A program made the position numbers and the translations under genes. DNA of 64,000 nt from Elainella sp. Prado103. GTDB lineage: Bacteria; Cyanobacteriota; Cyanobacteriia; Elainellales; Elainellaceae. How positions within the stretch are numbered: the stretch's first letter is position 1; each line of letters begins with the position of its first letter. The notes beneath the pieces are model-generated. The model was not told where the DNA came from. It was given only the letters and a program-made list of their open reading frames with translations, and ran no database searches. Below are positions 814-43,621 of the stretch, one piece after another. The stretch is from assembly GCA_025454395.1 (NCBI GenBank), contig JALOOM010000030.1:1-64000 (forward strand). Direction: 5' to 3'.

Positions 814-1611
814 ATGATTCAGAGGCAGCAAAATCCGTTAGGCGGGAGTTTCATGTTCCTGTGTTTTTTGACGGCAGCTCTACTCATCGCAGTCCAGAGC
901 CGAGATTTGTTGACTCGATCGAAGGGCAGCTCGAAACTGGGATCGAACCCTGGGTCAGGTGCTGCCACTGCTTCTGGATCAACAGCTTCTGGATCGACTG
1001 AGCTTCCAGACTACTCATTGCCACCCGTTGGTTCAGCCTCCCTCTCTACCCAAATCCTGCCTGCTGAGGAAATCACGTCCCCTGCCAATGAGAGGATTGC
1101 TGGGTATTCTTCGAGTCATGCTGCCAATTCAGCCCGACAGAATCCAACTCCATCGGCCCAACCCCTAGAATCTGGACTGGCTGAAACCTTGACGGCTGCC
1201 TTGCATCCGGTGTCGTTGCTCTTGCAGCCAGAACTGGTGGTGGATTTGAGTGATCGCCGCGTTAGCCTCTATCAAAATGGGGTTTGGCAAGCCAGTTACG
1301 ACATTGCCGTTGGTAAGTCAGGTTGGGAGACCCCAACAGGCAACTTTAAGGTGCTGAGTATGCAGGAAAACCCCACCTGGCAACATCCTTTGACTGGCGA
1401 AACGATCGCCAACCCGGCCGAAAGCCCTTTGGGTTCTCGTTGGATTGCCTTTTGGACAGATGGCAAACATCTGATCGGGTTTCACGGCACTAATCAAACA
1501 GAACTGATCGGTCAGGCAGTTTCCCACGGTTGCATTCGGATGCGCGATCCTGAAATTCAAGCTCTGTTTACCCAGGTAGCGATCGGGACACCCGTGCGCG
1601 TCCAAGAGTAA
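814..1611 (+). CDS. L,D-transpeptidase (YkuD family), membrane-anchored
   Basis: 265 residues. One N-terminal membrane segment (about residues 14-28, FMFLCFLTAALLIAV) precedes a Ser/Gly-rich linker to residue ~135. The YkuD catalytic domain fills residues ~140-265, opening with VVDLSDRRVSLYQNG and carrying the catalytic signature HGT (His ~224) and SHGCIRM (His 238, Cys 240). The family makes 3-3 cross-links in peptidoglycan, or attaches proteins to it, in the periplasm. All catalytic residues are present. It follows the SPOR-like gene on the same strand, suggesting a small cell-wall cluster. Confidence 0.88.
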   Translation: MIQRQQNPLGGSFMFLCFLTAALLIAVQSRDLLTRSKGSSKLGSNPGSGAATASGSTASGSTELPDYSLPPVGSASLSTQILPAEEITSPANERIAGYSSSHAANSARQNPTPSAQPLESGLAETLTAALHPVSLLLQPELVVDLSDRRVSLYQNGVWQASYDIAVGKSGWETPTGNFKVLSMQENPTWQHPLTGETIANPAESPLGSRWIAFWTDGKHLIGFHGTNQTELIGQAVSHGCIRMRDPEIQALFTQVAIGTPVRVQE

Positions 1612-32369: not shown

Positions 32370-32513
32370 CCTCAATCCGCCCAGGCGATCGATCAGTGGG
32401 CAGTTCCCTGAAACACTCTACTGAACACTCTACTGAAACAAGCCCCTGAAACACTCCACCAAAACAGCTCACTGAAAAATGGGCAAAGCCTCCTAGAATG
32501 AATCCCCAATAAA

Positions 32514-32526
32514 GTTAGGGAGCAAA
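32514..32526 (+). repeat. candidate left attachment repeat, model A
   Basis: GTTAGGGAGCAAA, identical and in the same orientation to 41027-41039. A 13-base match between the 270-base gap after ebsA and the ~450 bases after the recombinase is expected by chance only about 0.002 times, although such matches are common when the whole window is searched. Confidence 0.4.
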
Positions 32527-32549
32527 ACGGCTGATTAGGAACTAAAGTA

Positions 32550-32594
32550 GGCAAGCTAAGAAATTTTTTTAGCTTGCCAAAAAGTCTGGCAAGT
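32550..32594. repeat. inverted repeats downstream of the virion-like operon
   Basis: GGCAAGCTAA (32550-32559) is a perfect inverted repeat of TTAGCTTGCC (32569-32578). CTTGCC (32573-32578) then pairs again with GGCAAG across AAAAAGTCT. On the minus strand the first hairpin could end the operon's transcript, but no T-run follows it. Alternatively these are recombinase arm sites around the CCAAAAAGTCT core shared with 43563-43573. Confidence 0.5.
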
Positions 32595-32636
32595 TCCACA
32601 GAACCCCAGGGGTTCCTAAGCAGCATTTAAACAGCC

Positions 32637-33527
32637 TTAGCAATAGTACAAACCTTGCAAGCCTAGATAGCTGCCATAAAAAGTGACATTGCCACCGCCA
32701 CTGACCCGTTCGCAGATCTGGACAAAATGAGAACCTGGTGAGCCAAAACCACGGGCTATTCTCGTGCTCAGTGTTAGATCACCAGGAAAACCAGCGTTGT
32801 AACCCTCTGATGGGGTTGGCGAGGCATCCCACCCCATACCGAATTCAGCAATAGTCCCTGTAGGAGCGTTAGCCCGACTAGAGAGCGTTAAATCGAGCAT
32901 GGTTGTTCCGAATCCATCAACGATGGTGATCCGGTTGGCGGCTGAGTTATTTTGATTACGCCAACTCGCACCGGAATATTGCCAGCTCGCAGTCGGATCA
33001 AAGCGTTGCACCCTACGTGCTAGCTGATTCCAGCCATTGAACAGCAAGCGCTGATTCAAGTCATCCTGCATCCTGGCACTACCAGTAGATCCAGTCGTTT
33101 GGATAGTTCCTAGATAGAGCCGGTAATCATCCCCGCCAAAGTCTAGAACCCAGATCCCATCTTTGCGGATCAGCGGTCTGAATCGTGCGGTTGCACTACT
33201 CCAGCCTTGAGTGGTGATGAAGAAGTCCGTAACTGAGCTGTCTATTCCAGCGTAAAGATCAAACAGTCCAGGATTGGCGTTGCCGATATTGTGAGGGACA
33301 CCAGCATCAGGAATCTGACGATAGACCCATCGATCCAGCTCTCGATCCCAGAGCGGAATGATAGAGCCTTCATAGGGAAGGTAGTAAACGATTTGAGCGT
33401 TGGTGATGTTGGAAATTACAGCCGTTGGTGATAGGCTGAGTCGGCCTTGAGGTTTGGTAATCGGGATAGGACTGCTAGAACGCAACAGATCCAGAGTGGA
33501 AGTGATCGGGTTATCAATGGGCATCAA
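32637..33527 (-). CDS. phage structural protein, tail-fibre/tip type
   Basis: 296 residues, last gene of the minus-strand operon; its ATG overlaps the upstream stop codon (ATGA). The sequence follows a recurrent phage-virion pattern I recognise from tailed-phage structural proteins: QIVYYLPYEGSIIPLWD near the N-terminus, DLYAGIDSS, YRLYLGTIQTTGSTG, LLFNGWNQLARRV and SWQYSGASWRNQNNSAANR. These end modules are beta-rich and usually sit at the host-facing tip. Family knowledge places it on the virion surface; here that is inference. It is the only member of the operon with a recognisable virion family. Confidence 0.6.
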   Translation of the reverse strand: MMPIDNPITSTLDLLRSSSPIPITKPQGRLSLSPTAVISNITNAQIVYYLPYEGSIIPLWDRELDRWVYRQIPDAGVPHNIGNANPGLFDLYAGIDSSVTDFFITTQGWSSATARFRPLIRKDGIWVLDFGGDDYRLYLGTIQTTGSTGSARMQDDLNQRLLFNGWNQLARRVQRFDPTASWQYSGASWRNQNNSAANRITIVDGFGTTMLDLTLSSRANAPTGTIAEFGMGWDASPTPSEGYNAGFPGDLTLSTRIARGFGSPGSHFVQICERVSGGGNVTFYGSYLGLQGLYYC

Positions 33528-35026
33528 CCGTTACCTGATAGAGCGGTTTTCACATCATCCCATTCATCCGGCTGCTGGGGAGTCCAGAGCCGGAAGCGGA
33601 TCAGGGACTCTTGCCACTTGTTACCCGATAGATCGGATCGCGATTGCGGATCAACGGTCGGCCGCCGCACCAAGTAGGTAGCATAGCAAGGGAACATGCG
33701 AGTCGAATCCTTGCGTAACGCTGGATTGCGGTCACGTTCTTCTGTTACTGACAGGGTTGAAATTTCAGCATCACAAAGTATCAGTAACTCTTTCAGCTTG
33801 TCCTGTGCTTCCGCTGGTGTTGCACCATAGACCGCCATTTGCCTACCGTTGGTTAGCTTTGCAGTTGCCCGGAACTTGCCCCATTGGTATGCCTTAGCGG
33901 CTCGCTTGATCTGTTCCCAGCTCAGCCCAGACTTAGGATCGGGGATTGAGTAAGTGGCTTCCCGTGGCCGCTTGCCTTGCCGATCACGCCAGGGCGGTTT
34001 TTCGATCGAGCGAAAGACAATCACTAACTTCCTCCGCAACGGAGTAGCTCTCAGGTATTCTTCAGCCGGTTGCCCTACTAACTGTCCTACATCGCGGTTG
34101 TAGATCAGCTTATGCTGAGCAAGGGTAGTTTGGACAATCGCCTTAGCTTGCCGCTCTGGTGCCACCATGGCGATCGCTTCACCTGGTACATCTTTATCAG
34201 GGATGAGCTTGAAGGCTTGATCCGGGCCATCCTGATTAGCGGCTTTGGCGTTAGCGAGCTGGGCATCTAGTTCATAGGCAAAAATGTAGCCTGCTTCAAT
34301 GAAGCTATCAAAAAACTCATCGGTGAAACCTTCTACAAAGGCACGCAACGCCGGACTTTTGATGTTTTCGATCCGCTCTTCAAACTTCTCAGCCAGTGTC
34401 CAACTTGGTGCCGAATCAGGGGGATTGATGCCAGCAAGTTTCCTTAGCGATCGATAGCCGCTGAGGAACAGGTTAGAGCCAATCACTGAGAGCGTGCCCC
34501 TAACGGTACTGGTTAGGGTGCCCTGAAACTCCTCAAGCGCCTCTAGAGACACTTTGCCAGCTATCAGCTTGGCTAGTTTGGCAGAGCCAATTACCGGACA
34601 GAACACCGTCAACCCATAGCCTAATGCAATCCCAGCGATCCAACCCACACCACTCCCTAGCGCTGAACCCCATAGGGCAGATAGAGCAATGTTATTTGCT
34701 TGGATCCGCTGCTGAATCTCCCCATCACCAGCATTCCAATCAAACGTAGAGATAAACTGAGTAGCCTGTATAAAAGTTGAGAATATAGCAGTAACCGATA
34801 GATTTATACCAGAGACAATAACTTTAGATAGAAAACCTATCAATCGCTTGCCGATATCTTTAAGAGTTCTAAATACACCAGCAAGACCGCTAGCGCTAGC
34901 ACTTCCATCACTTTGATTAGATTCAAGCTTACCGCCTAGATCCAGTTTTCTGGTTAGCGAGTTACCCGTAGTTGCAATCCTAATTGTGCGGCTCAGTAAT
35001 CCGCCGCGCTCGATAGAAATCGCCAT
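33524..35026 (-). CDS. unrecognised 500-residue protein with central hydrophobic segments
   Basis: The start codon overlaps the upstream stop (TAATG), so it is translationally coupled. The N-terminal ~50 residues are polar. Hydrophobic segments follow at ~65-95 (LIGFLSKVIVSGINLSVTAIF) and ~115-150 (ALSALWGSALGSGVGWIAGI). Next is a helical, charged middle (FEERIENIKSPALRAFVEGF, then QAKAIVQTTLAQHK). The C-terminal ~170 residues are soluble and mixed, with LSWEQIKRAAKAYQWGKFRA. I know no family. Hydrophobic segments inside a virion-like operon could mean a membrane-penetrating, pilot or tape-like protein, but nothing proves it. Confidence 0.7.
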   Translation of the reverse strand: MAISIERGGLLSRTIRIATTGNSLTRKLDLGGKLESNQSDGSASASGLAGVFRTLKDIGKRLIGFLSKVIVSGINLSVTAIFSTFIQATQFISTFDWNAGDGEIQQRIQANNIALSALWGSALGSGVGWIAGIALGYGLTVFCPVIGSAKLAKLIAGKVSLEALEEFQGTLTSTVRGTLSVIGSNLFLSGYRSLRKLAGINPPDSAPSWTLAEKFEERIENIKSPALRAFVEGFTDEFFDSFIEAGYIFAYELDAQLANAKAANQDGPDQAFKLIPDKDVPGEAIAMVAPERQAKAIVQTTLAQHKLIYNRDVGQLVGQPAEEYLRATPLRRKLVIVFRSIEKPPWRDRQGKRPREATYSIPDPKSGLSWEQIKRAAKAYQWGKFRATAKLTNGRQMAVYGATPAEAQDKLKELLILCDAEISTLSVTEERDRNPALRKDSTRMFPCYATYLVRRPTVDPQSRSDLSGNKWQESLIRFRLWTPQQPDEWDDVKTALSGNG

Positions 35027-36738
35027 TACCTCTCACCCAACTTATCAATTTCAGGTTTCACGGTTGATTCCCGATTGAAGTCACTATTGGGGTCATTCAT
35101 TTGTCTAACAAACTCATCCCAATTTCCTTCACTAGACTGATCGAAAAACTCCTTAAGTTCGCCCAACATGCGCTCTACATCGTTACGCTTGCGGAAGAAA
35201 ACCGATTTGATAATTCCAGCGGAAAACATCAACTTCTGGAAATAGTCAAACGCTGATTCACGATCCTGATTCTGCCAGCCTACATATTGCGAGTCGGCTT
35301 CAGACAGGATACCCGATAGACTACCGGGTTGATTGGGATTGAAGGCAAAGCGCACATTTCGCTTAACTGGGTTCCCTTTGTAGCCTAGAAAGCTAGCGTT
35401 AGCACTGGCATAGTCTTGAGTGATCAGTGTAGCAGTCTTGATAGCCATGGCTTCAGTGGCAAGCCGAATCAGGAAACTGGTGTGAACGTCCGAATCGATC
35501 GCAGTCTTGGCCGCTAGTCCATAGATTTCAGCGATCGACTCTGCCAGGTTGGGGAGGTTTACGGTTTTGGCTTGGTTACCGCTGGCGGTGGGATCTTCAT
35601 CGGCAATCTCTACCTTGACCGGGAATTCCCCGATCAGCGCGTCCATTTGGCGCACAAACCAAGCCTGAAACTGAGTCAGCGATTCAAGATTGACGCTGGC
35701 AGAGCCGCGATCTGATAGCAGTGTTTGGGGCACTTTCACCGGATAGTCATCCGTTCCCAAACGACGGGCGATCAGCCTCAGCAATGCCTCTAGCTCATCA
35801 TTTTGATTGGACTTACAACAACAACTCATAGGACAGCAGCGAGGGGGAGGGGGAGGGGGGGGAGGGGGAAGAATTTTTCGAGGAATACAGGATGAATTTG
35901 GAGAAGGTAAAACTCGCCAAATTTTAGGAGCTGGAACCAACCCAGGATCAGCCTCATAAATTGCTGGAATGGACATTTTCAGCTTACCTTGCAGATCCAG
36001 AGAGACTAAAACAACAGCCCAAAAAGGGCCAGTTTTGGTGATTTCTCCCTGCGCATTGCGTCGATATTTCGCTGTACTTGTCCAGACTCCGATCGGTGGG
36101 CCATTGACAGTTGCATCCATGCCCAACCCTAAACCCACAGGTTGAGTAGAAATCACTTCTTTCAAATCTGGGTTTAGTGGGTCAATCCTCCCAGGGTCAA
36201 AGACTTGCCATTGAACTTGCATCCCACACCCGTCACCAGGGAAGCGATCCGGATCATCGTAGGGATCCCAATCCCAGGGCCCAAAATCATCTTGGGGGTT
36301 AGGGGGCTCTGGCGGGGTTGGCTGTTGTTCCTCTGGCGGCCGGCATCCTTGCAGTTTCAATCGGTAGCACGCTTCATATAGGGGAAGCGAAATCCAGAAT
36401 AGCGATGGCTGGATCTCCAGACAGGTTTCACAGCCGCTGGTTCTACCCCAAAACTCAACGCTTACAGGTAATAACTGCAATAGATCGCCAATGTCCACAC
36501 CAGCACCGCCGCACCAGGGGGATTCTGGGTAACGAGCACAATCCTGTGGATCGGCTGGTGTGTTGGGAGTAACAAAAACTCCTGAGTCTCCTACTGGTTC
36601 CAGATAATCACCAATGAGGGGATCAGGCCGGTATTCCCGATCAGGGTTAGTGATTGCCTCCAATAGGTTAAGAATCGGGTTTGACCGATCGGGGTTGTAA
36701 GTGTCAAGTAGATCAGTGACAGTTTGCCCTAGATCCAT
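35026..36738 (-). CDS. unrecognised 570-residue protein with polyproline/cysteine hinge
   Basis: It overlaps both neighbours at start and stop. The N-terminal half (~1-285) is Pro/Asp/Cys-rich and beta-like (PESPWCGGAGVDIGDLLQLL, MQVQWQVFDPGRIDPLNPD). A nine-proline run followed by RCCPMSCCCK marks a hinge at ~residues 292-313; its DNA is a long G/C tract on the plus strand. The C-terminal half (~315-570) is helical and includes LLRLIARRLGTDDYPVKVPQ and ASFLGYKGNPVKRNVRFAF. The Cys cluster suggests metal binding or disulfides. I recognise no family. Size and position suggest a main structural or adaptor protein. Confidence 0.7.
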   Translation of the reverse strand: MDLGQTVTDLLDTYNPDRSNPILNLLEAITNPDREYRPDPLIGDYLEPVGDSGVFVTPNTPADPQDCARYPESPWCGGAGVDIGDLLQLLPVSVEFWGRTSGCETCLEIQPSLFWISLPLYEACYRLKLQGCRPPEEQQPTPPEPPNPQDDFGPWDWDPYDDPDRFPGDGCGMQVQWQVFDPGRIDPLNPDLKEVISTQPVGLGLGMDATVNGPPIGVWTSTAKYRRNAQGEITKTGPFWAVVLVSLDLQGKLKMSIPAIYEADPGLVPAPKIWRVLPSPNSSCIPRKILPPPPPPPPPRCCPMSCCCKSNQNDELEALLRLIARRLGTDDYPVKVPQTLLSDRGSASVNLESLTQFQAWFVRQMDALIGEFPVKVEIADEDPTASGNQAKTVNLPNLAESIAEIYGLAAKTAIDSDVHTSFLIRLATEAMAIKTATLITQDYASANASFLGYKGNPVKRNVRFAFNPNQPGSLSGILSEADSQYVGWQNQDRESAFDYFQKLMFSAGIIKSVFFRKRNDVERMLGELKEFFDQSSEGNWDEFVRQMNDPNSDFNRESTVKPEIDKLGER

Positions 36739-36926
36739 GGTTGCTGCAATTTGGGCTGAACAAAGTTGTAGCTCTCAGGCTTGCGATAGCTGGCTTGGGC
36801 AACCCGCTGTCGATGATACTCCCATCGGCTTTGCTGGTAGAGCGGCGGGGTGAGCACAGTAGGAAAGAGACGATCGGCATTTTCACGGCTAGGAGCGATC
36901 GGCTCAAAAGGTCGAATCATATACAC
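36729..36926 (-). CDS. small unknown protein in the virion-like operon
   Basis: 65 residues (MYMIRPFEPIAPSRENADRL ...), basic, Tyr/Pro/Arg-rich, with no membrane segment. It overlaps the upstream gene's end by ten bases and the downstream gene's start by ten bases, so it fits exactly into the chain of coupled genes; that is the main evidence it is real. An inner ATG at 36920 is an alternative start. Confidence 0.6.
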   Translation of the reverse strand: MYMIRPFEPIAPSRENADRLFPTVLTPPLYQQSRWEYHRQRVAQASYRKPESYNFVQPKLQQPWI

Positions 36927-37753
36927 TCCAGCCCGGTTAGGGTGGCGTTCGCACCATCAGCAATGGCGGTGATGATGCCCGCGTAGGGGTTAGTCTGGTT
37001 GATTTCGTAAGAGCCGCCACCCGGCATCAACGCAATGCCCTGCCCAACCTGAGCCTGAACCCCATAGTTCAGAAAAACCGTGGCCGCAGATGAGCGGTTC
37101 ACTAGCGTGAGTTGCAGCCGGTTAGGGTTGATGGGTAGGAGCTGGGTTGAGTTGGTGCCGACTGTCCAGCTATAGGGAGTACAGGATTGAATCGATCGCG
37201 GCTCGTTGGGAAGAACAGTTGCTTCTTCCTTAGCAGAGCCGAAAACTACCACTTCATCAGTGTTCTGTAGAAGTCCATACCCGGCATCGAGGAGCCTAGC
37301 CAGGATCCGACTGCCAGCAGCAATATTGATCAGCCCGTTGTCAGTAAAGTAGGGCATTAGGTTGACATGATAGTAAGGCAGCCGATTGACTAAAGACACA
37401 CTAGCAATGACCACAGCCGGATGAGATGGGGATTCTAGTAGCAACTCTAGCTCTTTACGGGGTGATTTCCATTCCATATCACGAACCGCTGTAATCCGCT
37501 CGGTACGGCTAGACTCGATCGACAGTTCAGGAAGCTGCTGTTCTGAGATTGAGCTGATATCAACCTTCATACGAAAGTCAGTGATAAACCCGTAATATCG
37601 GACGGTTGACACCCGATCCCAGGGAGTTACAACAGCCGGTTCATAGAGTGAAATCAATTGATTTCCTGATGCCGCTGTAAAGCGTCGCAAAATTTGAGCA
37701 GAGCGTGAATAAACTTGTAGTTCCACTGTTTCTGAAGCAATCAATTTCATCAT
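36917..37753 (-). CDS. unknown beta-rich protein with virion-like C-terminal module
   Basis: 278 residues. The N-terminal ~180 residues are beta-rich (TVELQVYSRSAQILRRFTAA, YYGFITDFRMKVDISS). The last ~75 residues (NPNRLQLTLVNRSSAATVFL, LMPGGGSYEINQTNPYAG) resemble a small beta-sandwich often seen in phage head or tail proteins, in which a numeric column of 'nodes' is decorated. I cannot name a family. ATGATG at 37748-37753 gives two possible starts. Confidence 0.65.
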   Translation of the reverse strand: MMKLIASETVELQVYSRSAQILRRFTAASGNQLISLYEPAVVTPWDRVSTVRYYGFITDFRMKVDISSISEQQLPELSIESSRTERITAVRDMEWKSPRKELELLLESPSHPAVVIASVSLVNRLPYYHVNLMPYFTDNGLINIAAGSRILARLLDAGYGLLQNTDEVVVFGSAKEEATVLPNEPRSIQSCTPYSWTVGTNSTQLLPINPNRLQLTLVNRSSAATVFLNYGVQAQVGQGIALMPGGGSYEINQTNPYAGIITAIADGANATLTGLECI

Positions 37754-37773
37754 TGTAGAGTTGATGAGGATTG

Positions 37774-37944
37774 CTAGTAGATTTCCAGCTTTCCAAGTAT
37801 GACTTGGATCTGTTCAGCAGTGAAGCTCAGCTTTAGATCAGCACTCACCCAGATTTCTATAGAGCCGTTCAATCTGGCACGTCCCAACGCTTGAAACAGA
37901 AGATACTCCATTAAAACCCGCTCGCTGGGGGAGAGGGAATGCAT
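37774..37944 (-). CDS. small unknown protein (56 aa) in the virion-like operon
   Basis: A 56-residue frame (MHSLSPSERVLMEYLLFQAL ... IQVILGKLEIY) filling the gap between its two neighbours. Its ATG starts one base after the upstream stop codon, and its own stop is 20 bases before the next start. The protein is amphipathic and helical, with no membrane segment. Position and spacing are the main support. Confidence 0.55.
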   Translation of the reverse strand: MHSLSPSERVLMEYLLFQALGRARLNGSIEIWVSADLKLSFTAEQIQVILGKLEIY

Positions 37945-37945
37945 T

Positions 37946-38293
37946 CTATTCCCTAGGTTGGTAGTCGCTGGTTTTGACTAGGAAGCGCTCGATCTGGTTC
38001 ACTCTAGCAGCTAAACGATCTGAATCGTTTTTAGTCCTAGCTCGCAAATGATTAACCAGCTCTTTATTGCCGTTCACCGCCAAAATCAACTTATCGTTTA
38101 GTGCCTCTAATTGAGTACTTCTGAGTTGAGATTGATGGGATAGTTGCCCAATTGCCTGATCCACTTCTCTAATTTGGACTTCTAAACGATCCTCTATTCC
38201 CTTAAGTAAGTTAAATAACTTCCAAAGTGCAGCAATTAAGGGAATAAGAAAAATGATGAATGCAAATATTTGAGATTGAATTTCTGGGTTCAT
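37946..38293 (-). CDS. small membrane protein with coiled coil
   Basis: 115 residues from the ATG at 38293, with AAGGA about ten bases upstream. One N-terminal membrane helix (~residues 8-25, IFAFIIFLIPLIAALWKL) is followed by a long heptad-type coiled coil (LLKGIEDRLEVQIREVDQAI, then LEALNDKLILAVNGNKELVN). In phage operons such proteins include holin-like and spanin-like proteins, but the match is only to this general shape. It is the sole clear membrane-anchored small protein of the operon and thus the best guess for a lysis or membrane-tethering role. Confidence 0.65.
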   Translation of the reverse strand: MNPEIQSQIFAFIIFLIPLIAALWKLFNLLKGIEDRLEVQIREVDQAIGQLSHQSQLRSTQLEALNDKLILAVNGNKELVNHLRARTKNDSDRLAARVNQIERFLVKTSDYQPRE

Positions 38294-38313
38294 TTTAGAT
38301 TCCTTGTAGCCTA

Positions 38314-38733
38314 TCAAGGACTAATATCAAGGCAATCAATATCATTACCGTTATACTGCCAGACTTCTATAAAAACTTCACGCTGCCATTTTGGAAAGCG
38401 TAAGTTTAAAGTGATAGGAGGATTAATTATTTTGGGAAAATCTATGAGTGTGTAACGCCCCAAGCTGCAAACTTTACGCCAAGCGTCGATTGATACCAGA
38501 GTAGAACTACCACTAACTGGAGACGGTACAAGCATGGAAGCGTAAGCACCCACAAACCAGCGTGAAAGAGCATATTCACTAGAAACCCCTACCAGTGCAA
38601 CGTGAGAATTGACTGTAAAGTTCTGTTGCTCAATCTGCCAGTAGCGTAAACCAGAAGGTTGACCGATCAGGGTAGCAGTTGATATCAGTTGCCACTCAGA
38701 CGGCAAATTCAGATCCGGTAAGCGCCTGGTCAT
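38314..38733 (-). CDS. unknown 139-residue protein in the virion-like operon
   Basis: It overlaps the upstream gene's 3' end by 38 bases. Beta-rich and hydrophilic (SEWQLISTATLIGQPSGLRY, then YALSRWFVGAYASMLVPSPV, and REVFIEVWQYNGNDID). The pattern recalls phage baseplate or tail-completion proteins in a general way only. No signal peptide or catalytic motif. Confidence 0.6.
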   Translation of the reverse strand: MTRRLPDLNLPSEWQLISTATLIGQPSGLRYWQIEQQNFTVNSHVALVGVSSEYALSRWFVGAYASMLVPSPVSGSSTLVSIDAWRKVCSLGRYTLIDFPKIINPPITLNLRFPKWQREVFIEVWQYNGNDIDCLDISP

Positions 38734-38992
38734 GCTCTAGATCGTTAAAGTCAAAAGCTTCTTCATCATCATCTATCGTTGCTAAACGTTCATCATACTC
38801 ACCACCTTCTAGATACTCATCTAGTTCGGCAAAGGAGCATGGTTCTAGCAAGCCAGACTCAGCCCGCACGATAAAGGCAAACTCCCCCCCCCACCTGGCG
38901 GCCTCTTGCTGCCAATTTGGGGGGGGAGTTGCCAGAGCCAAATTAAACTCTGGATCACCAGGCAAGATCAAATTACTCTTCTTCACCACCAA
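38696..38992 (-). CDS. small acidic protein in the virion-like operon
   Basis: 98 residues, strongly acidic in the C-terminal half (LDEYLEGGEYDERLATIDDD, then EEAFDFNDLEHDQ). It overlaps the upstream gene by 20 bases and the downstream gene by 38. A short acidic protein just after a basic structural-type protein could be a scaffold or chaperone for it; this is speculation from position and charge. Confidence 0.6.
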   Translation of the reverse strand: MVVKKSNLILPGDPEFNLALATPPPNWQQEAARWGGEFAFIVRAESGLLEPCSFAELDEYLEGGEYDERLATIDDDEEAFDFNDLEHDQALTGSEFAV

Positions 38993-39566
38993 CTAGGGCC
39001 CAACCGGCCGGAAGTTCAGCATCAGATCCAGCAAAGGTGCTGATCGTGGTTCCGTCAGCATTCCGCTTATAAGCCTTGGTAGGTTTAGGGTAGCCACCAA
39101 AAACCAGATCAAAATTATCATCTGTGGTAGCAATATCCCGAATCCCTAATCCAGTTCTAGCAGTACCGATCGCGGTGTAGGTGTCTAAGGGCATGTTCCA
39201 GGCATACTTGATGTTGACTGCGCCAACCCCGGATCCAGTTTCAAACAAGACGTAAACTGGCTTGGAAAATGCACCCGATCCTTTGCCGCGTGCCTTGGCT
39301 CGCTTGCTGATTCTCCAACCGGCTGCCAGCGCACTTGTGCGACTGCCAGCATCAACAAAACTTGAAACAGTGCGGCCGGTAGCTCTAACCTTGAAGGCAC
39401 GGGCAGGTTTTGGAGAGTTCACACCAAACATGACACCCGCAGCGAGCGCACCTACGATCGGGGTATGGCCCAATTGGGTGCGCTCATCGGAATCAACTTG
39501 AGTGATGAACCCATAGCTGAAATTGGAGCGAGCAGAAGCTTTAACCGATACGCGGGTTCCCGCCAT
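38973..39566 (-). CDS. unknown basic protein with internal duplication; possible main structural protein
   Basis: 197 residues, Ala/Gly/Lys/Arg-rich and beta-like. It contains two related ~35-residue segments: PKPARAFKVRATGRTVSSF with ALAAGW (residues ~52-85) and PKPTKAYKRNADGTTISTF with ELPAGW (~160-190), aligned as PKP..A.K....G.T.S.F.....A..AGW. Internal duplication, basic charge and position near the 5' end of the operon would suit a coat-like protein. No known family is recognised. Confidence 0.65.
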   Translation of the reverse strand: MAGTRVSVKASARSNFSYGFITQVDSDERTQLGHTPIVGALAAGVMFGVNSPKPARAFKVRATGRTVSSFVDAGSRTSALAAGWRISKRAKARGKGSGAFSKPVYVLFETGSGVGAVNIKYAWNMPLDTYTAIGTARTGLGIRDIATTDDNFDLVFGGYPKPTKAYKRNADGTTISTFAGSDAELPAGWALVGGEEE

Positions 39567-39593
39567 AATTTATGCCTGATATTTCACTAAAGT

Positions 39594-39953
39594 TTAGAGT
39601 GCTGGATCTGCAATTGCATCCACAAAATCGCGGTTGATGTTCATTCTCACTGAGAGTGTGTAGTTAAACACTGAATACCAAATGCCGGATGAATCACGAA
39701 CCGGAGCACCGGAGGATGGAGCTGGGTAAGAGCGCAAATCTTGAGCATTTGATGGGTTAGCGTTGTAGTCATCCTGAGCACGGTTAGCGGCTTCAAGCAA
39801 CTTTGAAAGTGCTTCGGCCACTTTTTGATCAGTCAGAGCAACAGTTGTCTCACCCATTACAGCCCTCAGTGAGATTGTCACATCACCCGATGCTGAAACG
39901 ATCGAGTTTGCTGGCAATCTAGACTGAAGCTGAGTAAACGTCAAATCTGGCAT
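39594..39953 (-). CDS. first gene of the virion-like operon, unknown 119-residue protein
   Basis: Start at the ATG at 39953 because GAGAGGGG lies seven bases upstream; the longer frame to 39986 lacks support. The protein is Ala/Ser-rich and helical in the middle (ALTDQKVAEALSKLLEAANR), with a beta-rich end (GIWYSVFNYTLSVRMNIN). It has no membrane segment or motif I know. As the first gene with the strongest ribosome-binding site it is likely well expressed. Confidence 0.62.
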   Translation of the reverse strand: MPDLTFTQLQSRLPANSIVSASGDVTISLRAVMGETTVALTDQKVAEALSKLLEAANRAQDDYNANPSNAQDLRSYPAPSSGAPVRDSSGIWYSVFNYTLSVRMNINRDFVDAIADPAL

Positions 39954-40147
39954 AAAAAACCCCTCTCTGAACCTTACAATACCCAATCTTTAATCAGCTC
40001 ACCACTGTCACTTTTAGGTAGAAGTGGCAGTAAGCTAAATTAAGGGAAAGCTTGTACTGCAAGGGTTTGAAAAACTGAGGAGATTTATAAAGATATCAGT
40101 CCTCTCAGTTTTGTGGAATAGAGTATCTAAATTGAGAGGTATTGAAA
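39954..40147. promoter_or_regulatory. divergent promoter region between virion-like operon and recombinase
   Basis: A 194-base gap that must drive both the minus-strand operon and the plus-strand recombinase. An imperfect hairpin (ACTGAGGA at ~40075 against TCCTCTCAGT ending at 40109) is followed by TTTT. GAGAGGT recurs at 40134-40140 as the recombinase Shine-Dalgarno. No clear -35/-10 pairs were assigned. Confidence 0.45.
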
Positions 40148-40741
40148 GTGAAAAATAATCGACATGGACAAGCGGCGATCATGACCGATCGTGATCGATC
40201 GCTCATCCGTCGTCAGCTAAACAATGATTCTCACAAGCTGTTTTTTGATATCGCCTGTTGGACTGGTGAACGATGGGGGGCAATTGCTCAATTACAGGTG
40301 GGTGATGTCTATGCCGATCCGGTTCTATCAGTACCGCATGAGCAAATTACATTTAGGCGAGCCACTCGTAAGGCTTCACCCAATGGTGAGAGGTTTACTC
40401 GCCAAGTGTGGATTCACCCACATCTGCAAGATAGTTTACTGGCTTACAACCCAACCCTCAAAGGGTCGGATTGGCTTTTCCCGTCGCCATTGGGCAATCG
40501 GCCGATCAGCTTTAGCGCTTGCGACAAATGGTTTAGAACGGCTGTTCTAGAAGCAGGGTTAGACCACAAAGGGTTTTCGACACACAGCACCCGTCGCACG
40601 CTGATTACTAAGCTGAGTGAGCAGGGAACTGACTGGAAGGTGATCCAGGCTATTACTGGACATCGCGATATCAAAACTTTGGCCCGATATATCGAAGTTG
40701 ACACCAAACGAGTGAGCGCTGCACTTTCCGCAGTTTCGTAA
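40148..40741 (+). CDS. tyrosine recombinase, catalytic domain only
   Basis: 197 residues from the GTG at 40148, seven bases after AGAGGT (a TTG at 40142 is too close to it). Catalytic residues: Arg42 (TGERWGAI), a Lys in the beta-hairpin (about residue 75, RRATRKAS), His146 and Arg149 (THSTRRTL), His172 (TGHRDI) and the nucleophile Tyr181 (LARYIEV). There is no N-terminal core-binding (SAM-like) domain, and no room for one before the promoter region. Full phage integrases are 300-400 residues; stand-alone catalytic domains of ~200 residues occur in Fim-type switches and on some cyanobacterial plasmids. It probably integrates, excises or inverts this element. Confidence 0.9.
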   Translation: MKNNRHGQAAIMTDRDRSLIRRQLNNDSHKLFFDIACWTGERWGAIAQLQVGDVYADPVLSVPHEQITFRRATRKASPNGERFTRQVWIHPHLQDSLLAYNPTLKGSDWLFPSPLGNRPISFSACDKWFRTAVLEAGLDHKGFSTHSTRRTLITKLSEQGTDWKVIQAITGHRDIKTLARYIEVDTKRVSAALSAVS

Positions 40742-40870
40742 ATGGTTTGTGAAGCAGGCCACCAGGCAGCGGGATCCAGCATCCCGATCTTCATCTTCTG
40801 TCCAACAATGAGCGAGGCAGCGAGCCATAAGAATAGAGGTAGATCTAATGTACTTCCTAGATCTAGCGTA

Positions 40871-41128
40871 CTATTCACATGATGGCGGATCTGATCCGCT
40901 GTCGGTAGCTTTGCCCAAATAGCGCGATCGAAGCTTGCCACCTTCCCGCCAACGTTGGTAAAGGTAGGGGCCACATAATTCCTTCCCGCGCTTGATATAC
41001 TTCGCCTCAACCCAGCTTCCCGGCATGTTAGGGAGCAAATTGGAGGATGCACCCTCTTTATTGCTCCCTAACATGGTGAACAAATCTAGCTGATTGCCAA
41101 CATAGGGATTTTCAAGTTTTTGGGGCAT
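40871..41128 (-). CDS. small accessory-element protein with WREGGKLRSRYLGK motif
   Basis: 85 residues. The second half (GPYLYQRWREGGKLRSRYLG) is a motif I recall from many small cyanobacterial plasmid and phage proteins of unknown function; it is strongly basic and could bind nucleic acid. The middle of the gene contains a perfect 15-base inverted repeat and one copy of the candidate attachment repeat, so a recombination junction may lie inside it; if model A is right this gene is a chimera of element and flank. Confidence 0.6.
   Translation of the reverse strand: MPQKLENPYVGNQLDLFTMLGSNKEGASSNLLPNMPGSWVEAKYIKRGKELCGPYLYQRWREGGKLRSRYLGKATDSGSDPPSCE
41024..41075. repeat. perfect 15-bp inverted repeat with 22-base spacer
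   Basis: CATGTTAGGGAGCAA (41024-41038) is an exact inverted repeat of TTGCTCCCTAACATG (41061-41075). Inside the spacer GAGG and CCTC can extend the hairpin. The left arm contains the 13-base repeat also found at 32514-32526. The whole structure lies in the coding sequence of the 85-residue gene. Confidence 0.9.
41027..41039 (+). repeat. candidate right attachment repeat, model A
   Basis: GTTAGGGAGCAAA, the direct copy of 32514-32526, 286 bases after the recombinase stop codon, the usual place for an attachment site. It is also the left arm of a 15-base inverted repeat, so an alternative explanation as a binding site of another protein remains. Confidence 0.4.
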
Positions 41129-41178
41129 GGTGACACCCTAGCCAAATCACAGGCATACCCTGAAACGGGTGTAAAGGT

Positions 41179-41330
41179 CTATGGTTCTTCATCGTTGCCG
41201 AGTTCATCAACAACGGATTGCTGCAACGCTTCTAGCTCTATCAGCCATTCATTCATTTGATTAAGAAGGTCGGTTTGGGCTGCAATCAAGTGTCGCAATC
41301 GCTCTACTTGATTGCCGATAATTCCCCCAT
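41179..41330 (-). other. open frame after the RHH gene; overlapping ORF or frameshifted C-terminus
   Basis: This frame encodes QVERLRHLIAAQTDLLNQMN followed by EWLIELEALQQSVVDELGND, a convincing coiled coil, but has no ATG or GTG at its natural start. It is in the -1 frame of the ribbon-helix-helix gene and begins just where that gene stops. A frameshift, real or programmed, would join them into one DNA-binding-plus-coiled-coil protein; otherwise a TTG (first Leu of LRHL) or an upstream ATG at 41505 must be used. Confidence 0.45.
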
Positions 41331-41492
41331 CACTGAACGATCCTCCCTTGCAAACCGCTCTACCACTTCTGACATGCTGATGCCCAAAGCTTGAGCTTTG
41401 GACTGTAGCAGCCGCTTTGCCGTTGGTGTCAGCAATGCCTTGACTTGCTCGGTTTTCCCTTCCCCATAAAGGTTGTCTCTGATTTTCGGCAT
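41304..41492 (-). CDS. ribbon-helix-helix type regulator
   Basis: 62 residues from the ATG at 41492 (MPKIRDNLYGEGKTEQV). The segment VKALLTPTAKRLLQSKAQAL, then GISMSEVVERFAR, fits a ribbon-helix-helix (MetJ/Arc/CopG) fold: a strand with LTPTA followed by two helices and the GxSxSEVxE turn. Such dimers bind tandem operators. Four AGGTGAATAAC-type sites lie in the promoter between it and the divergent small genes, so it probably represses itself and them. The reading frame may continue past its stop by a -1 shift into a coiled coil. Confidence 0.68.
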   Translation of the reverse strand: MPKIRDNLYGEGKTEQVKALLTPTAKRLLQSKAQALGISMSEVVERFAREDRSVMGELSAIK

Positions 41493-41507
41493 CTTGGTTA
41501 GGCATAT

Positions 41508-41590
41508 AGGTGAATAACTCCCTGATTTTAGGTGAATAACAGTTGCATCGTTCTTCACCTAACTGTATTTTAGATCCTAGTTATTCACCT
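41508..41590. promoter_or_regulatory. iterated operator in the divergent promoter of the RHH gene
   Basis: AGGTGAATAAC at 41508-41518 and 41530-41540 (22-base spacing), its exact inverted copy GTTATTCACCT at 41580-41590, and a shorter inverted copy TTCACCT at 41554-41560. The sites fill the 112-base gap between the divergent genes. Two 22 bases apart would lie on the same face of the helix, as expected for cooperative RHH dimers. Confidence 0.72.
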
Positions 41591-41604
41591 AACTACAGTA
41601 AATT

Positions 41605-41784
41605 ATGACTAACAAACCTTGGACAATTTTCACCACTGTTCCAAACTCGATCAGCCCTCAACCGATCGCTAGCTATACACAGCGGGCCTGTGCAGAGCAG
41701 GCTTGCTGTTCCATCCGCCGTAAACTACCTTCAACGATCAGCGTATTTGTGGCATGGAACACCGAGGGGAAAACCCATGATTGA
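41605..41784 (+). CDS. small unknown protein (59 aa), first gene right of the operator
   Basis: 59 residues (MTNKPWTIFTTVPNSISPQP ...) starting at 41605. Its stop overlaps the next gene's start: that gene's ATG (41777) lies inside its last codons. A pattern of this kind (aromatic start, then RACAEQACCSIRRKL, then a strand) is seen in small cyanobacterial phage and plasmid proteins. Function unknown. Confidence 0.55.
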   Translation: MTNKPWTIFTTVPNSISPQPIASYTQRACAEQACCSIRRKLPSTISVFVAWNTEGKTHD

Positions 41785-42016
41785 TCCATTAGCCTTGGAC
41801 TGGGAAAAAGACGCGGTTAAGGAACTTGCAGATATGCTGAACTTGCTGGCTCAGGGTGAATTCGAGTCACCAGAAGCATTCTGTAACCGGATGGATGCCA
41901 GCAAAATGATGATTCTTACGATGTGGGGAGTTGCAACCGAAAAAACAAGACAGGATCTATGGAGTGCCAAACTTGCCATAGAGTCTGCCTTTAATCCGCC
42001 TGACGAGCTAGCCTAA
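41777..42016 (+). CDS. small unknown helical protein (79 aa)
   Basis: 79 residues from the ATG at 41777 (MIDPLALDWEKDAVKELADM), overlapping the previous gene by eight bases, so coupled to it. Helical and acidic, with no motif I recognise. The frame extends upstream in the ORF to 41690, but that part overlaps the 59-residue gene and is probably not translated. The candidate structured RNA begins a few bases after its stop. Confidence 0.55.
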   Translation: MIDPLALDWEKDAVKELADMLNLLAQGEFESPEAFCNRMDASKMMILTMWGVATEKTRQDLWSAKLAIESAFNPPDELA

Positions 42017-42019
42017 CGC

Positions 42020-42225
42020 CCTAGCGAAACGGAGGGTTGCCCCTCCGTCGCGGTAGCGTTGCAACCTATCGCACGTTGATCGGCTACTGTTTAGCGCTTC
42101 CAGAATGAAGCAAGCTTCAAGCTTCTGTTTATTCCCAAGCGCGGCATTGTCCGATCAACAAACCCTTCCAAGCCTTCAGAGTGAAGTAGACGACTTTGGG
42201 TGATTCTTAGGCGGGAAGGGTCTTA
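42020..42225 (+). ncRNA. candidate IS110-type bridge RNA
   Basis: The 247-base gap before the IS110-like gene folds by eye as follows. A 5' hairpin: GCG (42024-42026), bulge AA, ACGGAGGG (42029-42036), loop TTGC, CCCTCCGT (42041-42048), CGC. Stem A: GTTGATCGG (42075-42083) with CCGATCAAC (42151-42159), enclosing an internal loop (CTACTGTTTA / GGCATTGT), then GCGCTT (42094-42099) with AAGCGC (42137-42142), then an apical hairpin TGAAG-CAAG-CTTCA. Stem B: ACCCTTCC (42162-42169) with GGAAGGGT (42214-42221), enclosing a 44-base loop. A 5' hairpin plus two stems with guide loops, in the non-coding end just upstream of the recombinase, is the bridge-RNA architecture of IS110-group elements. Function and exact ends are inference. 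Confidence 0.6.
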
Positions 42226-42263
42226 AATTGCAGTCGATCACCCGTACTACAAGAGAATAGCCT

Positions 42264-43508
42264 ATGACAGACCGCGTTCTAGGGGTTGATATTTGTCGCG
42301 GCCGTGTTGTCGCGTGCCTATTAACCGAACTGCCGATCGAACCTCATGAAACCTATCAAGATTATGAGTTTTTCGAGTTTCCACTAACCAGAGATGGTGT
42401 TCAAGCGCTACTAGACCTGGAACCCACCACTGTAGTGTATGAGCCAACCGGCGTAGCCTACAGCCGCGCTTGGGTAGCTCGGATTGAGGAATCAGGCATT
42501 GAAACAATGGCCGTAGACCATGCCAAGCTGAGAGCCTATCGCAAGGGGCTAGGATTGCCTGATAAAGACGATGAAGCTGATAGCCTGGCCCTGGCCTGCT
42601 ACCGGCTTGATCCAATGAAACAAGGGAGAGCAGCCTTTTTACGGAAAAAACCACCGATCGTTTTAGAAGTGCGTCGTCTTTCCCTCAGACTGCAACATCT
42701 CGATCGCCGTAAATCTCCTATCATCAATCGATTGAAACAGGATCTAGAAACTTGCTTTCCTGAGCAAGCAACCAAGGATTGTGATAAAGCACCTTTATTT
42801 TGGGGATGGCTAGCTGGTGAGCGCAAAAGTGCCAAGTATGACCGGCTACTAGAACAAACGATCGGGCTAGGGCTCTATCCTGAGATCCGAACTGAAGCCC
42901 AGGCACTTACCCAATGCCTACGGGAAGAAACCGAGATCGAACGTCGGCTAGAGCTGCTGATCAAAACCCATGATGAGTTTAGACCTTACCTGAGAGTGCT
43001 GAGCAGATGGGGATTTGGGCTAAGGCAGCAAGCCATCCTGATGACTCAGATTTTCCCACTAGAGGACTTTCTTAAAGATGGGAAGGTGGAAGTTAGGCAA
43101 CGCCGATCTCGCAAAACCGGCAAGAAAATTACCCAGCATCGTAGTTTAAGACGGTTTCAGAAAGCGATCGGGGTTGCCCCTACCCGTGAGGATTCTGGAG
43201 ATGTTCAAAAACGACGGCGATCAGGTTCCTCCCTGTGTCGCAAAACTTTGTGGCAGTGGCAATTTACCCGAATTGAGAACCTGTCGATCAAAACCAGGAA
43301 TGCAATCGTACTAGAGTTTAGAGAAATATTTCGAGAGGCATCAGCCCGATTTTCGATCGCAGATGTCAGCCACCTGGTAGACCGAACACAGTTGCAGAAC
43401 TCTACCAAGTTGAAGGGGGTCAGACTGAAACTGGCAAGAGCATACATACGTCGGAAGGTGTCAATCCGCCTATTTTATGATTTAGTGAATGAACTGAGGT
43501 CTGATTAG
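42264..43508 (+). CDS. IS110-family DEDD recombinase (transposase)
   Basis: 414 residues, close to the usual length. The N-terminal RuvC-like domain shows Asp9 (VLGVDICRG), Glu60 (VVYEPTGVA) and Asp102/103 with Asp106 (DKDDEADSLALA), spaced as in characterised IS110 enzymes. A helical coiled-coil middle is followed by the Transposase_20-type C-terminal domain (KAIGVAPTREDSGDVQKRRR), where Ser311 of the SG motif is the likely nucleophile. Usual conserved Gly residues after the serine (GRISKxG) are replaced by KRRRSGSSLCRK, so it is a diverged member. Family enzymes recombine DNA under guidance of a bridge RNA; a candidate lies directly upstream. No terminal inverted repeats are seen, as normal for the family. 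Confidence 0.85.
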   Translation: MTDRVLGVDICRGRVVACLLTELPIEPHETYQDYEFFEFPLTRDGVQALLDLEPTTVVYEPTGVAYSRAWVARIEESGIETMAVDHAKLRAYRKGLGLPDKDDEADSLALACYRLDPMKQGRAAFLRKKPPIVLEVRRLSLRLQHLDRRKSPIINRLKQDLETCFPEQATKDCDKAPLFWGWLAGERKSAKYDRLLEQTIGLGLYPEIRTEAQALTQCLREETEIERRLELLIKTHDEFRPYLRVLSRWGFGLRQQAILMTQIFPLEDFLKDGKVEVRQRRSRKTGKKITQHRSLRRFQKAIGVAPTREDSGDVQKRRRSGSSLCRKTLWQWQFTRIENLSIKTRNAIVLEFREIFREASARFSIADVSHLVDRTQLQNSTKLKGVRLKLARAYIRRKVSIRLFYDLVNELRSD

Positions 43509-43524
43509 GCTTTCTCAGGCAGGT

Positions 43525-43560
43525 AGGCGATGGCACTAGAGGTCATCGCCTTTGGTTTTT
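43525..43560 (+). terminator. rho-independent terminator of the IS110-like gene
   Basis: AGGCGATG (43525-43532) pairs with CATCGCCT (43544-43551); the stem is followed by TTGGTTTTT. It lies 17 bases after the stop codon. Confidence 0.88.
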
Positions 43561-43562
43561 CA

Positions 43563-43573
43563 CCAAAAAGTCT
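43563..43573 (+). repeat. candidate right attachment repeat, model B
   Basis: CCAAAAAGTCT, identical to 32577-32587. Here it is flanked by TTCAC and GTGAA arms, on the left by CTTGCC and GGCAAG arms; a shared core with different arms is the pattern of attL/attR. It lies 49 bases before the DRTGG gene start, i.e. right at the edge of the accessory DNA. The match is only 11 bases. Confidence 0.35.
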
Positions 43574-43621
43574 TAGAGTGAATAAACGCACCCCATTGTG
43601 TTGAATGTTAGGAGCAGGAAT

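Follow-up and report, generated by a model that had tools for sequence, protein, structure and literature searches.

Does the non-coding gap in front of a cyanobacterial IS110-family recombinase gene encode a bridge RNA and, if so, how would such an RNA obtain a defined 5' end? The question is raised by a 64,000-nucleotide stretch of Elainella sp. Prado103 (assembly GCA_025454395.1, contig JALOOM010000030.1, positions 1 to 64,000), hereafter the window, in which 247 non-coding bases (42017-42263) lie 5' of the open reading frame (ORF) 42264-43508. A bridge RNA directly upstream of this recombinase had been proposed from the letters alone (the sequence-only reading), and the proposal is borne out by folding, covariation, matches between guides and flanks, and an empty site. 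The locus most probably (about 0.86) represents the module by which an 11-kb mobile element is integrated under RNA guidance, and in which an IS110 recombinase would use a bridge RNA that carries a hammerhead ribozyme on its 5' side.

Bridge RNA, guides and element ends

The recombinase gene, a single copy in its genome, encodes a protein with weak Pfam matches (DEDD_Tnp_IS110, Transposase_20) besides the family assignment given in Table 1, and its profile reaches the solved ISCro4 and IS621 chains in the PDB. Residues D9, E60, D103, D106 and S311 are present, in columns that are invariant in 18 relatives, and the protein is of the DEDD type with a C-terminal catalytic serine. Used as a query against viral and phage collections it gave no matches. 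The relatives examined were homologues from genomes of the same class together with 70 loci of a genome scan labelled cyanobacterial, which provide 73 distinct upstream regions.

Folding of 42000-42270 with RNAfold gave -97 kcal/mol (z -4.25), a value equalled by none of 200 shuffled sequences, and z was -3.77 for 42050-42262 folded alone. The gap, the ORF and the stems named in the sequence-only reading were found where it had placed them, the stems being perfect complements. Most relatives display two stem-loops, each with an outer stem, an internal loop and an apical hairpin, and the loop strands are variable in the first and nearly constant in the second. In a consensus fold of 19 relatives, hammerhead included, 28 of 58 pairs had changed on both sides in at least one relative, which is the covariation that the sequence-only reading had asked for as a check.

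The guides in the target loop read CCAGAAT-GAA and, from the complement of the 3' strand (which includes GTTTATTC at 42127-42134), GAA-TAAACAG, and the flanks of the element read CTAGAAT-GAA and GAA-TAAACGC. Over the 43 loci with a confident right end, the right target guide agreed with its own flank at 4.16 of the first five positions (27 loci perfect) versus 1.53 (standard deviation, sd, 0.16) for shuffled guides; the left target guide agreed at 4.21 of 7 positions versus 2.11 (sd 0.32) over 14 left-end sites. The donor loop carries CAGAGTGAA, as found at the right end TAGAGTGAA, and also the complement of GAATCACCC, a sequence similar to the left end GAATCCCC. L056 and L057, the two nearest relatives, have GAGTCCCC and GAGTCGCC as their left ends, and in both the donor guide fits the changed end. 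The loops thus correspond to the element ends as well as to the insertion site, which the sequence-only reading had set as a check; the strands that it took for guides, CTACTGTTTA and GGCATTGT, separate the outer from the inner stem and match neither flank, the true guides being located in the inner loop.

The element comprises 11,080 bp plus one copy of the GAA core, with cores at 32500-32502 and 43580-43582. Its left-end motif GAATCCCCA, which sits at 32500 in the window, is the exact boundary common to copies in another genome and recurs in further genomes; the sequence shared by two copies within genome G197 starts exactly at GAATCCCCAGACAG. Element ends adjoining the gap were considered and ruled out, since copies inside one genome have 9-12 kb upstream in common, beyond the gene and the gap. 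The hexamer TTAGGC at 43505-43510, with its complement at 42011-42016, had been placed next to the likely ends, but the real ends are at 32500-32503 and 43580-43583. The right end TAGAGTGAA (43574-43582) is situated 3' of the recombinase gene and contains its stop codon in some relatives. The recombinase gene comes last in an 11-kb element rather than belonging to a small insertion sequence, a point that the sequence-only reading had missed, and the bridge RNA is 9.5 kb from the left end, with most of the element in between.

The two chromosomal neighbours of the element adjoin each other in several relatives. In a genome of the same genus (G001) the junction of the empty site is CCACCTAGAATGAATAAATAC, which aligns with the joined flanks of the window, CCTCCTAGAATGAATAAACGC, and the uninterrupted target CTAGAATGAATAAA occurs there once in 8.7 Mb, at the same locus. 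Because the guides fit the flanks, the ends and the empty site, as in the definition of the IS621 bridge RNA (PMC11208160), the gap is established, as far as comparison of sequences goes, as encoding a bridge RNA.

An additional pairing may link the donor loop to the start region of the recombinase, given that ATCACCC, located about 20 bases before the start, is complementary to the 3' strand of the donor loop. The partners often change together in relatives (GGAGA/TCTCC, GGAGT/ACTCC, GGGGACT/AGTCCCC, GTGTGAC/GTCACAC), and the mean longest match between donor loop and leader was 5.0 versus 4.1 (sd 0.12) for shuffled leaders. A structural or regulatory role of this pairing is possible.

L056 and L057 (both from genome G212) present a bridge RNA with three loops, two target-like and one donor. 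The first loop of L056 reproduces the sequence at the right-hand junction after integration (AAAGT-GAG-AATAG), and in its second loop the left guide matches the left flank (ATGAT), with no match found for the right guide (GAACTAG). In L057 two elements seem to lie in tandem, and their junction displays the donor directly.

The hammerhead and a proposed mechanism

Upstream of the target loop the window reads CCGC-CUGACGA-GCUAG..CUAGC-GAAA-CGGAGGG..CCCUCCG-UC/GCGG, with stem I open and the slash marking the cleavage predicted between 42049 and 42050. All sequence marks of a type-I hammerhead are present between 41996 and 42060, namely CUGANGA, GAAA, UH, three stems that covary and the loop-II pseudoknot. 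The short 5' hairpin of the sequence-only reading (42030-42047) is indeed present; what had been missed is that it constitutes stem III of a ribozyme that starts further upstream, at 41996, inside the 3' end of the upstream ORF.

A hammerhead core was detected by pattern in 53 of the 73 loci, and in 38 under strict stems; in these 38, N7 is T, C or A and H17 is C (36) or A (2), never G. In an alignment of 26 relatives, pairing is kept at 97-100% in stems II and III, where both sides have often changed, and at about 86% in the pseudoknot; the covariation score of the hammerhead was 0.401 versus 0.147 for shuffles and at most 0.09 for slid pairings. The strands of the pseudoknot are complementary in most relatives (GACTC/GAGTC, GACCC/GGGTC, GATCC/GGATC, GACGC/GCGTC, GACAC/GTGTC). 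When 116 genomes of the class were searched with a covariance model of the hammerhead, 10 matches were obtained at E <= 0.001, nine of them with this recombinase family directly downstream (one a fragment), and the pattern occurs once in the genome of the window, at this locus. Based on the comparison among relatives, a type-I hammerhead at the 5' end of the bridge RNA is established as sequence and structure, and its activity is predicted.

The hammerhead was found in the deepest branches of the recombinase tree and its distribution requires about eight changes, at least five of them on well-supported branches, for which reasons it reads best as ancestral with repeated loss. Rfam, run over the window and ten relatives, gave no family above cut-off for this RNA; one relative scored 25.8 bits to RAGATH-1-hammerhead, below the cut-off of that family.

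Two contigs of a viral collection (L165 and L226), encountered in a scan with the hammerhead pattern, contain a hammerhead followed by a distant IS110_2-like recombinase, and both carry a P22-type coat gene, weak in L226; the pairing of hammerhead and recombinase extends here outside the elements gathered from cyanobacterial genomes. In another locus (L276, genome G055) a hammerhead of the same model has no recombinase within 1.5 kb and perhaps belongs to a degraded element.

In the proposed mechanism, one loop of the bridge RNA would pair with the chromosomal target (about 5 nucleotides, the GAA core and about 5 more) and the other with the joined element ends, which would act as donor; recombination at the common GAA core would then insert the element without a scar. 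The promoter of IS621 arises where the ends are joined and lies immediately 5' of the bridge RNA (PMC11208160). Such a junction promoter of classical IS110 elements would be far off in this case, because the bridge RNA is 9.5 kb from the left end. The region is most likely co-transcribed with the upstream gene, and the ribozyme would cut after 42049, which would release the bridge RNA, and likewise the recombinase mRNA, at the 5' end. Given the distance to the left end and the overlap of upstream ORFs with the hammerhead (24 of 73 loci), co-transcription followed by self-cleavage appears to be the likeliest route to a defined 5' end. Transcription, cleavage, binding by the protein and the purpose of the cleavage are what we infer in this scheme.

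Table 1. Coordinates in the window of the element, its integration module and neighbouring features
Feature	Position	Strand	Details
Whole element	32500..43582	.	left end GAATCCCCAATAAAG, right end TTAGAGTGAAT
Left target half + core	32493..32502	+	CTAGAAT-GAA; 9/10 to left target guide
Tyrosine-recombinase-like gene	40142..40741	+	199 aa (amino acids), catalytic domain only; Pfam PF00589, E 3.6e-18; in 11/16 related loci examined
Upstream ORF	41690..42016	+	stop inside hammerhead (..NPPDELA, stop)
Type-I hammerhead ribozyme (predicted)	41996..42053	+	all core nucleotides present; model R1, 61 bits
Hammerhead, stem I	41996-41999/42050-42053	+
Hammerhead, CUGACGA	42000-42006	+
Hammerhead, stem II	42007-42011/42021-42025	+
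Hammerhead, GAAA	42026-42029	+
Hammerhead, stem III	42030-42036/42041-42047	+
Hammerhead, U16.1-C17	42048-42049	+
Hammerhead pseudoknot	42015..42060	+	stem-II loop AACGC 42015-42019 with GCGTT 42056-42060, just 3' of stem I
Bridge RNA body after predicted cleavage	42050..42250	+	3' end approximate; z -3.77; consensus fold
Target-binding stem-loop	42075..42159	+	outer stem 42075-42083/42151-42159, inner stem 42094-42099/42137-42142, apical hairpin 42112-42124
Left target guide + core	42100..42109	+	CCAGAAT + GAA; matches left flank 32493-32502
Right target guide	42125..42134	+	CTGTTTATTC (complement GAATAAACAG); matches right flank 43580-43587
Donor-binding stem-loop	42162..42221	+	stem 42162-42169/42214-42221; left donor guide TCAGAGTGAA 42176-42185, right donor guide GGGTGATTC 42198-42206
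Possible second pseudoknot	42198..42243	+	GGGTGAT 42198-42204 with ATCACCC 42237-42243; position conserved
IS110-family recombinase	42264..43508	+	414 aa; NF051857 transpos_IS110_2, NCBIfam E 4.9e-121
Terminator-like hairpin	43525..43551	+	3' of recombinase gene; consensus match, number found near chance expectation
Right donor end + core	43574..43582	+	TAGAGT-GAA; matches left donor guide AGAGTGAA; same kind of end in ~40 relatives
Core + right target half	43580..43587	+	GAA-TAAAC; 8/8 to right target guide
Donor and target sequences			donor TTAGAGTGAATCCCCAATA; target CTAGAATGAATAAAC

Known systems and alternative explanations

As in IS621 and ISCro4 (PMC11208160, PMC11208158), a DEDD/Ser recombinase is preceded in the window by a bridge RNA in which the target loop comes before the donor loop and left and right guides surround a short core, and insertion would likewise be scarless. 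Unlike these systems, the one described here has a 5' hammerhead, a GAA rather than a CT core, an extra pairing between the donor loop and the start region, and a very short right end that overlaps the stop codon in some relatives; the short left non-coding end with a promoter at the junction of right and left ends, part of the IS110 layout, is lacking, the left end being 9.5 kb upstream. Filamentous phages with an IS110-family transposase at one end have been described in Neisseria (Nf) and Thermus (phiOH16, Zuza8, Zuza27), and in these, as in the window, the IS110 gene ends a phage-size element, which it is thought to integrate (PMC11437467); no mention of a bridge RNA or ribozyme was found in that paper. 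The window element, in contrast to these phages, has no recognisable phage genes, and its relatives L060 and L061 bear Zot.

Pseudoknotted bacterial hammerheads are often located near integrases and prophages, and the pseudoknots joining stems I and II matter for their activity (PMC3088659). The window ribozyme resembles them in core, stems, stem I-II pseudoknot and mobile-element setting, and differs in being fused directly to the guide RNA of a recombinase and in remaining unmatched by the Rfam hammerhead families. The nearest precedent is VIPR, in which guide-RNA arrays are interspersed with hammerhead ribozymes (preprint PMC13142463); hammerheads stand beside guide RNAs in both, but VIPR has an unrelated interference protein and guide code, and arrays rather than bridge RNAs. 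A hammerhead joined to a bridge RNA was not found described before: the open-access literature on hammerheads with IS110 or bridge RNAs held nothing relevant, and subscription papers were mostly outside this search, so that novelty is unproven.

Several observations weigh against the favoured explanation. The right donor guide pairs with the left end of the window, GAATCCCC, with one mismatch or bulge (the match is exact in L056 and L057). About a quarter of the relatives are without a hammerhead and have a plain 5' stem instead, and stem I is just 2-4 bp long in many. Free-energy folding of the isolated window hammerhead does not produce a hammerhead fold, because the pairing between loop II and its pseudoknot partner competes; a relative whose loop is without that complement (L068) does fold as a hammerhead. 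No Rfam hammerhead family was detected in the window up to E 10; the Rfam models were trained on other members, and a match to them is not a defining chemical feature of hammerheads.

It could be argued that the bridge RNA is real and the hammerhead inactive or purely structural, a fossil serving as 5' stem-loop: some relatives keep a stem only and have lost the core, minimum-free-energy folding does not favour the hammerhead in the window, and bridge RNAs of the IS621 type have a 5' stem-loop (PMC11208160). Yet deep branches retain the catalytic core, the H17 rule and the pseudoknot even as the stem sequences vary freely, and CUGANGA, GAAA and UH would be unnecessary for a structural stem, which makes this explanation quite improbable. 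That the ribozyme serves the recombinase mRNA, its stability or translation, perhaps together with the pairing of donor loop and start, and not production of the bridge RNA, is unlikely though not far-fetched; the cleaved RNA would carry the recombinase start too, and the co-changing pairing involves the donor loop and the bases immediately preceding the start codon, but the predicted cleavage site is at the 5' end of the bridge RNA, 24 of 73 loci have an upstream ORF that runs into the ribozyme, and the two roles are mutually compatible.

Integration by the tyrosine recombinase, with the IS110 gene as a passenger, is very improbable. Although such a gene is present in 11 of 16 related loci, bridge RNA guides fit the flanks of their own elements in dozens of loci, the Zot-bearing L060 and L061 have the same ends and matching guides, with no such gene among the listed ORFs of L060, and the 199-aa protein corresponds to the catalytic domain alone. 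Almost no credence can be given to an ordinary 5' leader or attenuator devoid of guides whose flank matches arose by chance; a stretch of 64 kb readily yields single-site matches of 8-9 bases, but comparison of own with shuffled guides over 43 loci refutes this statistically, and the empty site and the donor guides that change together with their donors also speak against it. RNA-guided integration by the IS110 recombinase, with a hammerhead-bearing bridge RNA, is thus the preferred explanation.

Cargo, relatives and significance

Apart from the tyrosine-recombinase-like gene, the cargo proteins of the window gave no Pfam match and no convincing PHROG match. A minus-strand block (32637-39986) contains about nine genes encoding proteins of up to 570 aa, some of them common to related elements, and could represent the virion genes of an undescribed group. 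No phage relative was found for the 500-aa cargo protein, a single-sequence AlphaFold model of 38973-39566 was useless (predicted local distance difference test score, pLDDT, 31), and a Zot-like ATPase was not encountered in the window element, with no Pfam or PHROG match among the larger proteins. Zot is a mark of filamentous phages, and the L060 lineage is filamentous-phage-like, since a Zot gene is present in it. Beside another related element (L019), a HEARO/OMEGA RNA (1060-1286, minus strand; 141.8 bits) is located some 80 bp past the right end.

With due caution, and at slightly less than even odds, it can be hypothesized that hammerhead-bridge RNAs form a distinct ancestral class of self-processing guides, cut from an operon transcript and enabling an IS110 recombinase to act for phage-size elements, and that the pairing between the donor loop and the start region couples the state of the guide to translation of the recombinase.

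If the proposed mechanism is correct, a self-cleaving ribozyme would be united with the guide of a programmable DNA recombinase, which would provide a way of making a bridge RNA without an adjoining junction promoter, and natural bridge-RNA recombinases would carry cargo of about 9-14 kb. The family would then offer dozens of new systems, retargeted by nature, in which the core is GAA (or GAG) and the targets are known, and which may be candidates as tools for DNA insertion.
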